Source: a virus. Taken from it: a stretch of 37,088 nucleotides of DNA. The translations under genes and the position numbers were made by a program. The notes beneath the pieces are model-generated. The model made no database searches. It saw only the letters and a program-made list of their open reading frames with translations, and was not told where the DNA came from. This document shows, in pieces, positions 15,630 through 26,985 of this stretch (the first letter of the stretch is position 1; each line of letters opens with the position of its first letter). The stretch covers positions 1-37,088 of the IMG/VR virus record IMGVR_UViG_3300050175_000018. The stretch is one strand, 5' to 3'.

Positions 15630-16073
15630 TCAAAATCGCCCTTCGTACTCAAGGCCAAGCACTGAAACTTGGCCCATTTGGTACCATTTAAAGTAGCCAT
15701 ATTTAACCGAAAGCCCGCCAAACGGCGTAAAAAAATCGTCTGCCACATAGTCTTCATACCCGGTGGCTATGCCTAAAAAAGCTTCTGCTGTAAAACTTTC
15801 ATAACTATAGCTATAAAAAGTTCTACTGTAGAAGTACGCATAGCAACCTTTGTCGTCTGAATCATCCAAGATTGTTTCACAATAAGAGTGCTTGTATACG
15901 CCGGCGCAATCGTTATCAATGCAAAAGTAAATACTCCGGTGGTCTGACTCGTTGTAGTCGAATGAATCGTCATGGTGGTCAGATTGCAGAAAAGTACCGA
16001 TTCGGTAATTGTCCGATTCAGCCTGGGCCGAGAAGCAAAATAGAATTAATATTAGTGCAGTTAGTTTATTCAT
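15630..16073 (-). CDS. Secreted small beta-barrel-like envelope protein
   Basis: A 147-aa protein with a clear Sec signal peptide (MNKLTALILILFCFSAQA, cleavage after AQA). The mature part is aromatic and acidic, with four cysteines that could form disulfides (FCIDNDC; YCE; GCYAYF) and ends EYEGRF, a terminal Phe typical of outer-membrane strands. The segment FLGIATGYEDY, then PFGGLSVKYGYFKW, resembles small exported proteins found as accessory genes in Pseudomonas-type phages and their hosts. Start is supported by AGAGGA upstream of ATG 16073. It opposes the tail operon. Altering the infected cell surface or superinfection exclusion is possible but unproven. Confidence 0.65.
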   Translation of the reverse strand: MNKLTALILILFCFSAQAESDNYRIGTFLQSDHHDDSFDYNESDHRSIYFCIDNDCAGVYKHSYCETILDDSDDKGCYAYFYSRTFYSYSYESFTAEAFLGIATGYEDYVADDFFTPFGGLSVKYGYFKWYQMGQVSVLGLEYEGRF

Positions 16074-18865: not shown

Positions 18866-19067
18866 CGAGCTTAAAAGGGCAGTATGGGAAGGCAGGCAGG
18901 CTTTTATTGATGGAGTCGAAGATTGCCCTTATTCTCTCGATACGGTAAACCTGGCTACCCCTAGCCAACAGGATTGCTTATGGTTTAGGTGGCATTCAGG
19001 CTACATTATGGAACACGAACGATACTTAATGAATAAAGACTTATCGGCAAGTAAGATTCACAGCTAG
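18852..19067 (+). CDS. Small protein resembling the ribosome modulation factor (Rmf/CrpP) pattern
   Basis: A 71-aa product with AVWEGRQAFIDGVEDCPYSL and a later CLWFRWHSGYIMEHE. The spacing E-G-x-x-A-F-x-x-G-x-x-x-C-P-Y, then W-x-x-G-Y, recalls the Rmf-like small-protein fold, in which Rmf dimerises ribosomes. The likeness is by eye and may be only structural. The start is GTG 18852 inside the previous gene. Its 3-prime end runs 27 nt into the leftward zinc-finger gene, so the two transcripts overlap. A ribosome-binding role is inference. Confidence 0.5.
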   Translation: MKPHNELKRAVWEGRQAFIDGVEDCPYSLDTVNLATPSQQDCLWFRWHSGYIMEHERYLMNKDLSASKIHS

Positions 19068-19241
19068 TTTTATCGTTTTATCGTTATGCAATATTTGGTC
19101 TATAGGTATAAACTCTCTATTGCAGTTGTTGCAAATAGTGTAATCCAGGTACACTAGTAAATCGGCGTTATCATACCGAATGATATCTAGGTTTTTATTA
19201 ACCCTTGTGTCTGTCGAATTACATTTATTGCATTTAATCAT
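19041..19241 (-). CDS. Small two-CxxC zinc-finger protein, MqsA N-domain-like
   Basis: A 66-aa leftward gene with Cys4-x2-Cys7 and Cys37-x2-Cys40 spaced like a zinc ribbon, plus a middle strand region (RYDNADLLVYLDY). The layout resembles the N-terminal zinc domain of MqsA/YgiT-type antitoxins but lacks their helix-turn-helix half. No toxin gene is adjacent. It has no ribosome binding site: a -10-like TATACT ends 7 nt before the ATG, suggesting a leaderless mRNA. A perfect 17-bp inverted repeat lies just upstream (19258-19274). It is the only leftward gene in this part of the early region. Confidence 0.6.
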   Translation of the reverse strand: MIKCNKCNSTDTRVNKNLDIIRYDNADLLVYLDYTICNNCNREFIPIDQILHNDKTIKLAVNLTCR

Positions 19242-19247
19242 AACAAA

Positions 19248-19274
19248 AGTATATCAAAGTATACAAAATATACT
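19248..19274 (-). promoter_or_regulatory. Promoter and palindromic operator for the leftward zinc-finger gene
   Basis: Read leftward, an extended -10 (TGATATACT, hexamer at 19253-19248) is followed by 6 nt and ATG 19241. Overlapping the upstream side is AGTATA-CAAAA-TATACT (19258-19274 on the plus strand), a perfect inverted repeat with 6-bp arms. No good -35 is visible, as is usual for extended -10 promoters. The arms match the AGTAT/ATACT half-sites at the other early promoters. Confidence 0.5.
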
Positions 19275-19320
19275 ATAGTTTTATTCGATACTTAGTTAAG
19301 TTGATATAGGTTATATAGAT

Positions 19321-19353
19321 AAAAAAGCCCTTGAGAAAAAGATCAAAAGGGCT
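19321..19353 (-). terminator. Leftward intrinsic terminator at the end of RNA A
   Basis: On the minus strand AGCCCTT (19353-19347) pairs with AAGGGCT (19332-19326) and is followed by a T run (complement of A 19321-19325). The plus strand has no T run after the hairpin. The copy at 20281 has the same distance between hairpin and U tract, so both its position and direction are conserved. Confidence 0.65.
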
Positions 19354-19640
19354 ATACTCAGACTTATCAACCGGGTAACCAGCCCTTTTGAACAGTAAAG
19401 ATAAACGTATTTACGGCCCAAATGCACTAAGTGCGATCGATTTAAAGATTCTATCTTAAAGCTGCTCAAGATTAAAGTTACCTGTAAGTGTTTTTAAATC
19501 GTGGCTGATGTAGTACTGAATTCGATTAAGTAGATTATCAATAGGTAAGCGGCATTTTAAGGGCCTTTCATCGACACCGGCCTTATAACCGTAAGTCCTT
19601 CCTGACAGGCACTTGTTAATCTGTCAGCCACGTTTTAAGA
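19321..19640 (-). ncRNA. Candidate structured non-coding RNA A, paralogue of the RNA at 20281
   Basis: Fills the 429-base gene-free stretch 19242-19670. Its left domain matches 20281-20435: without gaps, 50 of the first 78 positions agree by my count, with TTGAACAGTAA and ATTTACG conserved. The stem TTGAACAG (19388-19395)/CTGCTCAA (19462-19469) plus AAGATA (19398-19403)/TATCTT (19452-19457) is preserved by different bases in the other copy, as is the hairpin GCAC-TAA-GTGC (19424-19434). A right domain is closed by GTGGCTGA (19501-19508)/TCAGCCAC (19624-19631), with a competing CTGACAG/CTGTCAG hairpin (19602-19627). Strand is uncertain; I favour minus because a U-tract terminator ends the left side. 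The right boundary is approximate. Confidence 0.55.
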
Positions 19641-19670
19641 ACATTTCCAACAACATAGAGAGGTTATAAA

Positions 19671-19973
19671 ATGAGTTTCATTTTAGACTTAAACGATTTG
19701 AAATTGCGCCACGCTGGATGGCTTAAATCAATGGGATGGTGGAAGAATAAAACGATCCTAGAATCACTGATGCTAGTAGTTTCTGAATGCGGCGAAGCTG
19801 CAAATGAAGTTCGCGGCGATAAACCAACAGATAAATTTGAAGAAGAATTAGCGGACATAATTCTACGGGTTGTTGGAATAGCGGGGGAGCAGGAAATTAA
19901 TATACAGCAAGCTGTCTTAAACAAAATGCGGAAAAACCGAGAACTAGCGCACAACCCTGACAGAAAGAAATAA
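19671..19973 (+). CDS. MazG-like nucleotide pyrophosphohydrolase
   Basis: A 100-aa single-domain all-alpha NTP pyrophosphatase. The metal-binding helices are visible as ESLMLVVSECGEAANEVRG (E-x-x-E-type first helix) and FEEELADIILRVVGIA (E-E-E-L-A-D second helix). Phage MazG-like enzymes hydrolyse (d)NTPs and have been proposed to lower host alarmone levels or adjust nucleotide pools. Substrate here is unknown. GAGAGG 7 nt upstream supports ATG 19671. It is the first gene after structured RNA A and looks intact. Confidence 0.82.
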   Translation: MSFILDLNDLKLRHAGWLKSMGWWKNKTILESLMLVVSECGEAANEVRGDKPTDKFEEELADIILRVVGIAGEQEINIQQAVLNKMRKNRELAHNPDRKK

Positions 19974-20010
19974 GCTTAAGAACATTTAACCAACGAATAG
20001 AATATAGATT

Positions 20011-20244
20011 ATGAGCGAGCAAAGAAATAAATTAAGAGTAATGTGCAGTAGAACTGAATGCATAGAAACAGGGTGTTCCTTCCCTGACTGCTTAGATAAA
20101 GAGTCCAGGGAGATTTATGATAGCTGCGGAACCTGTCAAGATGGATCTTACGGGCCGTCACACTGCGGTTCTGCTAATTGTGAATCTGGATCAATAGCGA
20201 GTGGAGGTGATAAAAGCCACTGTTCTTGTGATATTTGTTTTTGA
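20011..20244 (+). CDS. Small cysteine-rich protein, conserved phage family
   Basis: A 77-aa protein with 12 cysteines. The core SCGTCQDGSYGPSHCGSANC, then ESGSIASGGDKSHCSCDICF, is a pattern I recognise from many unrelated siphophages and is probably a compact zinc-binding fold. Its function is not known to me. The start has no clear ribosome binding site. It stands alone between the MazG-like gene and the second structured RNA. The high cysteine and histidine content argues for metal binding rather than disulfides, since no signal peptide is present. Confidence 0.7.
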   Translation: MSEQRNKLRVMCSRTECIETGCSFPDCLDKESREIYDSCGTCQDGSYGPSHCGSANCESGSIASGGDKSHCSCDICF

Positions 20245-20280
20245 TTCACCTAGCAATATGTTAGTCAGTAGAAAGCAAAT

Positions 20281-20313
20281 AAAAAACCCGTTGCTAAAGG
20301 AAGCGAACGGGTT
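20281..20313 (-). terminator. Leftward intrinsic terminator at the end of RNA B
   Basis: On the minus strand AACCCGTT (20313-20306) pairs with AACGGGTT (20292-20285), extended by GCT/AGC across a bulged base, and is followed by a T run (complement of A 20281-20286). The hairpin is 11 bp and strong. On the plus strand no T run follows it, so it would act only on leftward transcripts. Confidence 0.68.
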
Positions 20314-20800
20314 TAGAATATAATTATCGATTGGGTTGACAGCCTAGTTGAACAGTAAGAGATATTTACGAATCCAATACCCTAACGGGCAACCGATAAG
20401 TCAATTTTAATCTCTATCTCTTACTTTTTCAACCCTGCTGTAGATTTTATTCAATCGACGTTATACCTACCACCAGGCACGTACCGAAAGGGAACCGCCA
20501 AAGGATAATTTATTATCTGGATTAGAAGGGGTGGCGACATTCTCGCAACAATAAGGAATGGAGATAAACAGAACTTATACTGATACAAGGTGTTAAACGT
20601 CACTGACCTTAACTCAAGTGCGCAGCAAACAAAGCTGAATAAAAAATAATCGGCTTTATCAGTGCCAGTCAGTAAAGACTTTAATTCAAAAGGTTGCTAT
20701 CACAGAAAGGGGCCACACCGCGAACTGCCCGATAGCCTAAGTGGAACCAACAGGAAAAGGGGACTCTAGTACTTGTAATTGGTAGTTACCATGCAGGGAA
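20281..20800 (-). ncRNA. Candidate large structured non-coding RNA B
   Basis: Fills the 581-base gene-free stretch 20245-20825. The left domain, shared with RNA A, has AGTAAGAGAT (20354-20363)/ATCTCTTACT (20416-20425) stacked on GTTGAA (20347-20352)/TTCAAC (20428-20433). Crossing it, TTATCG (20324-20329)/CGATAA (20394-20399) with ATTGG/CCAAT would make a pseudoknot. To the right lies a three-way junction closed by ACTGATA (20579-20585)/TATCAGT (20657-20663) with hairpins 20587-20610 and 20632-20656. Further helices are GCTATC (20696-20701)/GATAGC (20731-20736) stacked with GGGC/GCCC, CGCCA/TGGCG (20496-20536), and a CC-GAAA-GG loop at 20484. Strand is uncertain; minus is favoured by the terminator at its left end. 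The right boundary is approximate. Confidence 0.55.
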
Positions 20801-20825
20801 AGGGCGGTAAATATGAGGAAATTAA

Positions 20826-26244: not shown

Positions 26245-26985
26245 ATGGCTGATAAAACCGGGATAAGCTGGACTGATCACACATTCAACCCTTGGTGGGG
26301 CTGTACAGCGATAGCCCCAGGCTGTGATAACTGTTATGCCGCTGCATTGGACAAGAGAACTGGTGGTAACTATTTTGATGTTAAAGTAGCTCCGCGCCGC
26401 ACTTCAAGTAAAAACTGGCGAAAACCGATCTTTTGGAACCGGGAGGCCGCGCAAGGCCGGAGGCACAGGGTATTTTGTGGCTCTATGATGGACTGGTGTG
26501 ACAATGACGCGCCAGAAGGTGCGCTTGATGAACTCTGGCAGTTAATACGTGATACACCATGGCTCGACTGGCAGTTGCTTACTAAACGCGCAACGCTGAT
26601 CGAGCGATGTTTGCCGAGCGATTGGGGCAATGGCTATCAAAATGTCTGGCTTGGTGTCACCGTTGAAGATATCAAATACGGGATGCCGCGCATCATGTCC
26701 TTACGAGACATCCCAGCAAGGGTGAAATTTATCAGCGCTGAACCGCTTTTGGAAGACGTTAGTAGCATTAATTTAAAATGGATTGATTGGGTAATCATCG
26801 GCGGGGAATCCGGTCAAAATTTCAGGCCGATGTATTCGCATTGGGCAGAAAACCTGCTGCAAGAATGCAAGGAATCGAGAGTTCCTGTTTGGTTCAAGCA
26901 ATGGGGCGGCAACACTCGCGACAAAGGCGGCAATAAAATATTAGGTAAAATCTACCAGGAATGGCCGCTCAATGCCTGTGGGTAA
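26245..26985 (+). CDS. Phage Gp37/Gp68-family protein (DUF5131), likely Fe-S radical SAM-like
   Basis: A 246-aa protein. The N-terminus ISWTDHTFNPWWGCTAIAPG, then CDNCYA, gives C-x6-C-x2-C, the family cysteine cluster resembling radical SAM sites but with atypical spacing. Later come FCGSMMDWCDNDAP, WLDWQLLTKR, NVWLGVTVED and WVIIGGESGQNFRPM, all diagnostic of DUF5131. Members are common in phages, but I know no firmly assigned substrate. It lies between NinB and NinG, with a 14-nt overlap into NinG. Modification of nucleic acid or protein is only inference. Confidence 0.88.
   Translation: MADKTGISWTDHTFNPWWGCTAIAPGCDNCYAAALDKRTGGNYFDVKVAPRRTSSKNWRKPIFWNREAAQGRRHRVFCGSMMDWCDNDAPEGALDELWQLIRDTPWLDWQLLTKRATLIERCLPSDWGNGYQNVWLGVTVEDIKYGMPRIMSLRDIPARVKFISAEPLLEDVSSINLKWIDWVIIGGESGQNFRPMYSHWAENLLQECKESRVPVWFKQWGGNTRDKGGNKILGKIYQEWPLNACG

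Follow-up and report, generated by a model that had tools for sequence, protein, structure and literature searches.

Small RNAs in phage genomes

To our knowledge, few phage small RNAs are known apart from those of prophages of E. coli and Salmonella, and fewer still come as paralogous pairs. In lambda, the leftward OOP RNA lies next to O, just upstream of the replication genes and opposite the early operon; it is short, terminated, present as a single RNA and antisense to cII. The sibling sRNAs OmrA/OmrB are adjacent paralogues that have short identical segments in common, each with its own terminator. Another pair was shown by RNA-seq in the virulent phage PAK_P3, whose sRNA1 and sRNA2 (about 100 bp, strongest late) lie in neighbouring intergenic gaps; their role is unknown, as is that of RNA C and RNA D of T4 (PMC4933390), and they are not known to be paralogous. 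The put RNAs of HK022, about 70 nt long with two stem-loops, belong to the transcribed early strand, where they follow PL and PR, bind the zinc-binding domain of the RNAP β′ subunit and antiterminate (PMC9378689). Finally, type III antitoxins and pseudo-ToxI are built of tandem repeats of about 36 nt (PMC3475682).

The virus genome considered here carries two related segments, hereafter copies A and B, that can be set beside these systems. Like the PAK_P3 and T4 RNAs, they would form a phage RNA pair of unknown role and, like the former, they occupy neighbouring intergenic gaps. As in phage intergenic sRNAs, both are intergenic, structured and provided with a terminator. They resemble OmrA/OmrB in being adjacent paralogues with short identical segments and a terminator each, with no known sequence relation to them, and resemble putL/putR in that the early region of a lambda-like phage contains a related pair of structured RNAs.

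Two gaps in a rightward early region

The window, the whole 37,088-base record of an uncultivated virus, belongs to a phage of the HK97 type as judged from terminase, portal and capsid. Its rightward early region has a lambda-like gene content, with an O-like protein (21960) and a P-like loader (22276), then NinB (25774), NinG (26972) and Erf (30141). Copies A and B, situated about 2.5 and 1.5 kb upstream of the O-like gene, occupy gaps among the rightward genes. The rightward genes to the right of A are MazG-like and ORF20011, and those to the right of B are GIY-YIG, O and P. The proposed RNAs and their terminators are the following.

19321 to 19490, minus strand: RNA A, putative leftward small-RNA gene of about 165-170 nt, proposed from homology to B, fold and terminator
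19321 to 19353, minus strand: intrinsic terminator of A, AGCCCTT/AAGGGCT followed by a U tract, rank 4 of 121
20281 to 20455, minus strand: RNA B, paralogous putative leftward small-RNA gene, proposed from fold and terminator
20281 to 20314, minus strand: intrinsic terminator of B, AAACCCGTT/AACGGGTTT followed by a U tract, rank 1 of 121

The ORF list of the window holds no rightward ORF of at least 50 aa under A or B. A mechanical 52-aa ORF starting with TTG spans copy A (19311-19469, minus strand) and has no counterpart of at least 50 aa in copy B. The initial annotation was right that neither copy lies within a gene.

Several neighbouring features may be mentioned. To the left of A, a leftward ORF of 66 aa (19041-19241, minus strand) has two CxxC pairs and is zinc-ribbon-like; it reaches the threshold of no family in Pfam or PHROG, shows no clear ribosome site and is directly preceded by the AT-rich repeats AAAGTATAC (19246-19273). 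To the right of B, a 370-bp gap without any plus-strand ORF of at least 50 aa (20456-20825, plus strand) precedes the GIY-YIG-like (T5orf172) gene; it looks RNA-like by eye and has no Rfam match at the gathering score. Farther away, a PagP-like lipid A acylation protein (15630-16073, minus strand; phrog_3600, E 5e-7) may be a moron gene. Many unrelated phages encode relatives of a Gp37Gp68/DUF5131-like protein (26245-26985, plus strand), one of them, at locus L017, at 68%; over the DNA compared, its two closest loci have no other compared gene in common. Judged by TerL, the relatives of the phage in the collections searched are distant: the nearest reach 65%, one in a MAG and one in a short viral contig.

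Homology of the two copies

At a fixed offset of 960, A and B are identical at 50 of 78 bases without gaps, which reproduces exactly the approximate count of the initial annotation. Their gapped local score is 208, against 61.7 ± 11.0 (maximum 115) for 500 dinucleotide-shuffled pairs, that is about 13 SD above the shuffles. On this alignment, the homology of the two copies is beyond doubt. It extends to about 19495 and 20455, past the block ends first given. The motifs and hairpins named at that time are all found in the sequence, and TTGAACAGTAA and TATTTACG have no further occurrence anywhere in the 37 kb. The following shared segments are likewise restricted to the two copies within the window.

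19388 to 19415, minus strand: shared segments of A, CGUAAAUA (19415-19408) and CUGUUCAA (19395-19388)
20348 to 20370, minus strand: shared segments of B, CGUAAAUA (20370-20363) and CUGUUCAA (20355-20348)

A and B have diverged by about 40% and yet keep identical stretches of 8 and 11 bases. Such retention suggests that these bases contact another molecule, RNA or protein.

Predicted structure of the RNAs

Both RNAs are predicted to form an outer helix, a long imperfect main stem and a large apical loop. In each copy, three features lie in the loop: the first strand of a crossing helix, a small hairpin with a UUA loop and the invariant CGUAAAUA. On the 3′ side of the loop come the invariant arm UUACUGUUCAA, GGCUG, the outer 3′ strand and the second crossing strand, followed by a diverged linker and the terminator. 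The elements are as follows.

19374 to 19482, minus strand: helix P1 of A, GGUAAC (19482-19477) with GUUACC (19379-19374), from the sequence
within 19388 to 19469, minus strand: main stem P2 of A, part 1, UUGAGCAG (19469-19462) with CUGUUCAA (19395-19388)
within 19388 to 19469, minus strand: main stem P2 of A, part 2, AAGAUA (19457-19452) with UAUCUU (19403-19398)
19366 to 19441, minus strand: crossing helix of A, possible pseudoknot, AUCGAUC (19441-19435) with GGUUGAU (19372-19366), a conserved helix
19424 to 19434, minus strand: small hairpin of A, GCAC-UUA-GUGC, from the fold
within 20347 to 20433, minus strand: main stem P2 of B, part 1, GUUGAA (20433-20428) with UUCAAC (20352-20347), from the fold
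within 20347 to 20433, minus strand: main stem P2 of B, part 2, AGUAAGAGAUA (20425-20415) with UAUCUCUUACU (20364-20354), from the fold
within 20333 to 20441, minus strand: outer helix of B, first option, ACAGC (20441-20437) with GCUGU (20343-20339), from the minimum-energy fold
within 20333 to 20441, minus strand: outer helix of B, second option, GGGUUGA (20435-20429) with UCAACCC (20339-20333)
20324 to 20399, minus strand: crossing helix of B, possible pseudoknot, UUAUCGGUU (20399-20391) with AAUCGAUAA (20332-20324)
20379 to 20390, minus strand: small hairpin of B, GCCC-GUUA-GGGU, from the fold

Since the two forms of the outer helix of B are mutually exclusive, a structural switch is possible there. 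The 8-bp helix that crosses the main stem is common to A and B, and on the minus strand alone it is continuous in each of them; it was selected by RNAalifold itself, and 4 of its 7 outer pairs are changed on one or both sides. It may be noted that the crossing strand of B (20404-20391) appears by eye pairable with 19374-19362 of A on the minus strand, over about 12 bases with several G.U pairs; through this complementarity, the two RNAs might pair with each other.

The initial annotation had proposed that the copies keep the same pairing with different bases. This description fits some of the pairs, namely in the crossing helix, in the terminators and in the main stem of B, where a GA/TC insertion of 2 bp relative to A affects both arms at once. 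It does not fit the UUACUGUUCAA arm, which is identical in both copies, nor the 5′ arms, which shift register. For these reasons, and because only two sequences are compared, strict column covariation is modest: the best covarying helix score was reached in 76 of 400 shuffles and helix length alone stood out. Covariation between A and B may thus be called suggestive.

Assignment of the strand

The initial annotation gave no strand; the data favour the minus strand for both RNAs. Five G.U pairs of the minus-strand helices each become an A.C mismatch on the opposite strand. Three of them belong to A (main stem, one; crossing helix, two) and two to B (hairpin and crossing helix, one each). This count is biased in that the helices were picked from the minus strand, and in the fold of A on the plus strand, at least one pair, in CGGGUAAC/GUUACCUG, runs the opposite way. 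The stem TTGAACAG/CTGCTCAA, initially described as part of a long stem, is broken by an A.C mismatch when read on the plus strand and is complete only on the minus strand, thanks to G.U pairing. Folding each block on each strand, a check proposed at that stage, showed that both fold better than shuffles. Copy B reaches -55.7 (z -6.06) on the minus strand versus -45.5 (z -4.68) on the plus strand; copy A, with z values of -2.71 (minus) versus -4.59 (plus), does not by itself favour the minus strand. For the aligned pair, the column-shuffle z of RNAalifold is -5.1 on the minus and -4.2 on the plus strand, and -4.4 versus -3.2 after removal of the terminator. The longest helix common to A and B column by column has 8 bp on the minus strand and 5 bp on the plus strand; column shuffles attained these lengths in 13 and 349 of 400 cases, respectively. 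The model R2 also matches copy B on the plus strand (E 0.041), as is expected for a hairpin-rich element.

The hairpin flanked by an A tract, pointed out at the outset on the left side of each block, is indeed present in both copies and, read leftward, forms a minus-strand intrinsic terminator. The rankings given above come from a scan of the full 37-kb window on both strands, which yielded 121 candidates. In the alignment the two terminators, both on the minus strand, coincide in position; they differ by one exchanged pair (G-C for A-U) and one added G-C pair. Because they serve leftward transcription and the genes to their right run rightward, each would need a leftward RNA of its own.

Such a leftward RNA could be the attenuator or riboswitch of the zinc-ribbon-like ORF (19241-19041), in which CAAAAGGGCU of A would pair with AGCCCUUUUG and open the terminator. 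This 10-bp alternative pairing does exist in A, with a competing hairpin at 19348, and the ORF lies 80 nt downstream of A on the same strand. However, B has neither a downstream ORF nor the alternative pairing, and a terminator before a same-strand gene is found in A only. Moreover, a promoter-like site (TTAACT-16-TATAGT, 19299-19272) belongs to the ORF itself, which lacks a clear ribosome site and is accompanied by no Rfam class. Attenuation is, in our opinion, highly improbable.

A second model would read the elements rightward, as leaders placed before MazG/ORF20011 and GIY-YIG/O/P and acting on elongation or translation, either put-like or as attenuators. Rightward genes do lie to the right of both copies, the plus-strand folds likewise beat shuffles, and promoter-like hexamers occur on the plus strand at similar places (19331-19358, 10/12; 20291-20319, 9/12). 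However, the -10 hexamers are one base out of register between A and B, and promoter-like matches are about as numerous in the region as in shuffled sequence (16 versus 15.1). Further points against leaders are the strong terminators on the minus strand and the plus-strand helices, which are broken by A.C mismatches and, when shared by columns, do not exceed 5 bp. Such leaders seem quite unlikely. As for the put-like antitermination suggested in the initial annotation, it is unsupported because, on the favoured strand, transcription would run against the early genes and stop at a terminator, and because the length is more than twice that of put, although the promoter-like hexamers of the plus strand would suit a sense-strand position behind an early promoter: the homology covers about 165 nt with one long stem, unlike the roughly 70 nt and two stem-loops of HK022.

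Search for relatives

No Rfam 15 family reaches its gathering score in the window with covariance models, and the best sub-threshold matches (E up to 10) are far below it, as illustrated by GibS (21.9 versus 115). Together with the folds that beat shuffles, this comparison, already advised in the initial annotation, leaves standing its view of two paralogous structured RNAs of no recognised family. A search for homologues, also advised there, gave no third member in the phage, plasmid, IMG/VR and genome sets. Within the window, nhmmer with a model of the A and B pair detected no third copy. When the region and each single copy were compared with phages by blastn, and copy B also with plasmids, only short chance matches appeared, among them a 26-bp match in Salmonella phage 39 (E = 2). 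Pattern searches of IMG/VR retrieved 8 and 5 stretches, none related on alignment. Around relatives of the MazG, DUF5131-like and TerL genes (about 150 related loci), nothing was found with nhmmer or R2. R1 had no match in the MAG with the nearest TerL (65%), nor R2 in 15 viral records. Genomes of one order (210) and of one class (369), chosen around this MAG, contained no true relative by R2; the single match (G449) is next to an operon of the nuo type, does not include the 73-position core and corresponds to AT-rich flanks. As no positive control had been planted in the genome searches, absence from them is weak evidence. The RNA family would thus be absent from the collections searched, and covariation rests on two sequences.

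An RNA of this sort might act as a decoy or inhibitor, its core binding a host protein, for instance a ribonuclease of a defence system or a regulator that binds RNA, with two copies for dose. The compact fold and the identical unpaired segments of A and B would suit this role, for which pseudo-ToxI offers a precedent of phage RNA mimicry (PMC3475682). But the copies match no known RNA family and contain no tandem array of repeats of about 36 nt of the ToxI kind, and we hold a decoy to be very unlikely.

Possible transcription and functions

Examination of the 5′ ends revealed no convincing sigma-70 site before RNA A or RNA B. A 26-bp motif is found, in two inverted copies identical at 22 of 26 positions.

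19483 to 19508, minus strand: motif TCAGCCACGATTTAAAAACACTTACA, candidate promoter or operator at the 5′ end of A
19624 to 19649, plus strand: motif copy TCAGCCACGTTTTAAGAACATTTCCA, upstream of the MazG-like gene

The first copy abuts the start of P1 of A and the inverted one is about 22 bases 5′ of the MazG start codon; by our estimate, chance would give such a pair in about one per thousand such regions. A shorter piece, TTAAGAACATTT, is identical at 19635-19646 and 19976-19987 (plus strand), about 25 bases 5′ of the start codons of two rightward genes, MazG-like and ORF20011. Copy B is devoid of the TCAGCCACG half of the motif and retains only CGATTGAATAAAATCTACAG. The 26-bp motif is put forward as a candidate shared promoter or operator of the divergent units A and MazG-like.

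Homology, folding, terminators and strand preference support the idea of sibling small RNAs. In this model, on balance probable, a duplication would have produced two leftward RNA genes, separately terminated and lodged between genes of the rightward early region. Transcription of A would start at the motif shared with the MazG-like gene. Each RNA would have about 165-170 nt and consist of the long stem, the looped hairpin, a possible pseudoknot and the intrinsic terminator. Both would act in trans, as OmrA/OmrB do, through the identical CGUAAAUA (loop) and UUACUGUUCAA (3′ arm). Pairing of the shared segments with the start regions of the phage genes compared was not clearly better than that of shuffled segments, and for most segments it was no better at all. 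The one lower value, for the hairpin of A against ORF 34102 (-15.5 versus a null of -12.2 ± 1.7), concerns one of six segments and a self-complementary hairpin. A target in the host would hence be more likely than one in the phage.

Alternatively, the leftward RNAs could act in cis as OOP-like antisense RNAs, pairing with the rightward early transcript and damping MazG, O and P by cleavage or shielding. By position, strand preference and terminator, A and B would indeed be short leftward RNAs, each with an intrinsic terminator, encoded upstream of the O-like gene (21960) and the P-like gene (22276). The UUAG of the hairpin loop also conforms to YUNR, a loop motif of antisense RNAs. Lambda OOP is similarly near O (PMC12197685). 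It differs in being shorter, single and antisense to cII; here there are two paralogues, no sequence similarity to OOP was found, and no gene, in particular no rightward ORF of at least 50 aa, lies underneath. Moreover, pairing in cis would not require identical segments in both copies. This mechanism appears unlikely.

The readings thus rank as follows: sibling trans-acting sRNAs, OOP-like antisense RNAs, leader elements, protein decoy and attenuator. Among the roles first envisaged, a regulatory ncRNA is the likeliest, a decoy or sponge is conceivable, and put-like antitermination has no support. If A and B are ordinary regulatory sRNAs, they would add one further orphan family. They would, with little probability, be a diverged pair of a new class of pseudoknotted phage RNAs that bind and block a host protein, for example a defence nuclease, or a host RNA machine. 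Two diverged copies in one genome make a built-in comparison that exposes the constrained parts, namely CGUAAAUA, UUACUGUUCAA, the UUA loop and the crossing helix, and the question of what they bind thereby becomes directly testable.
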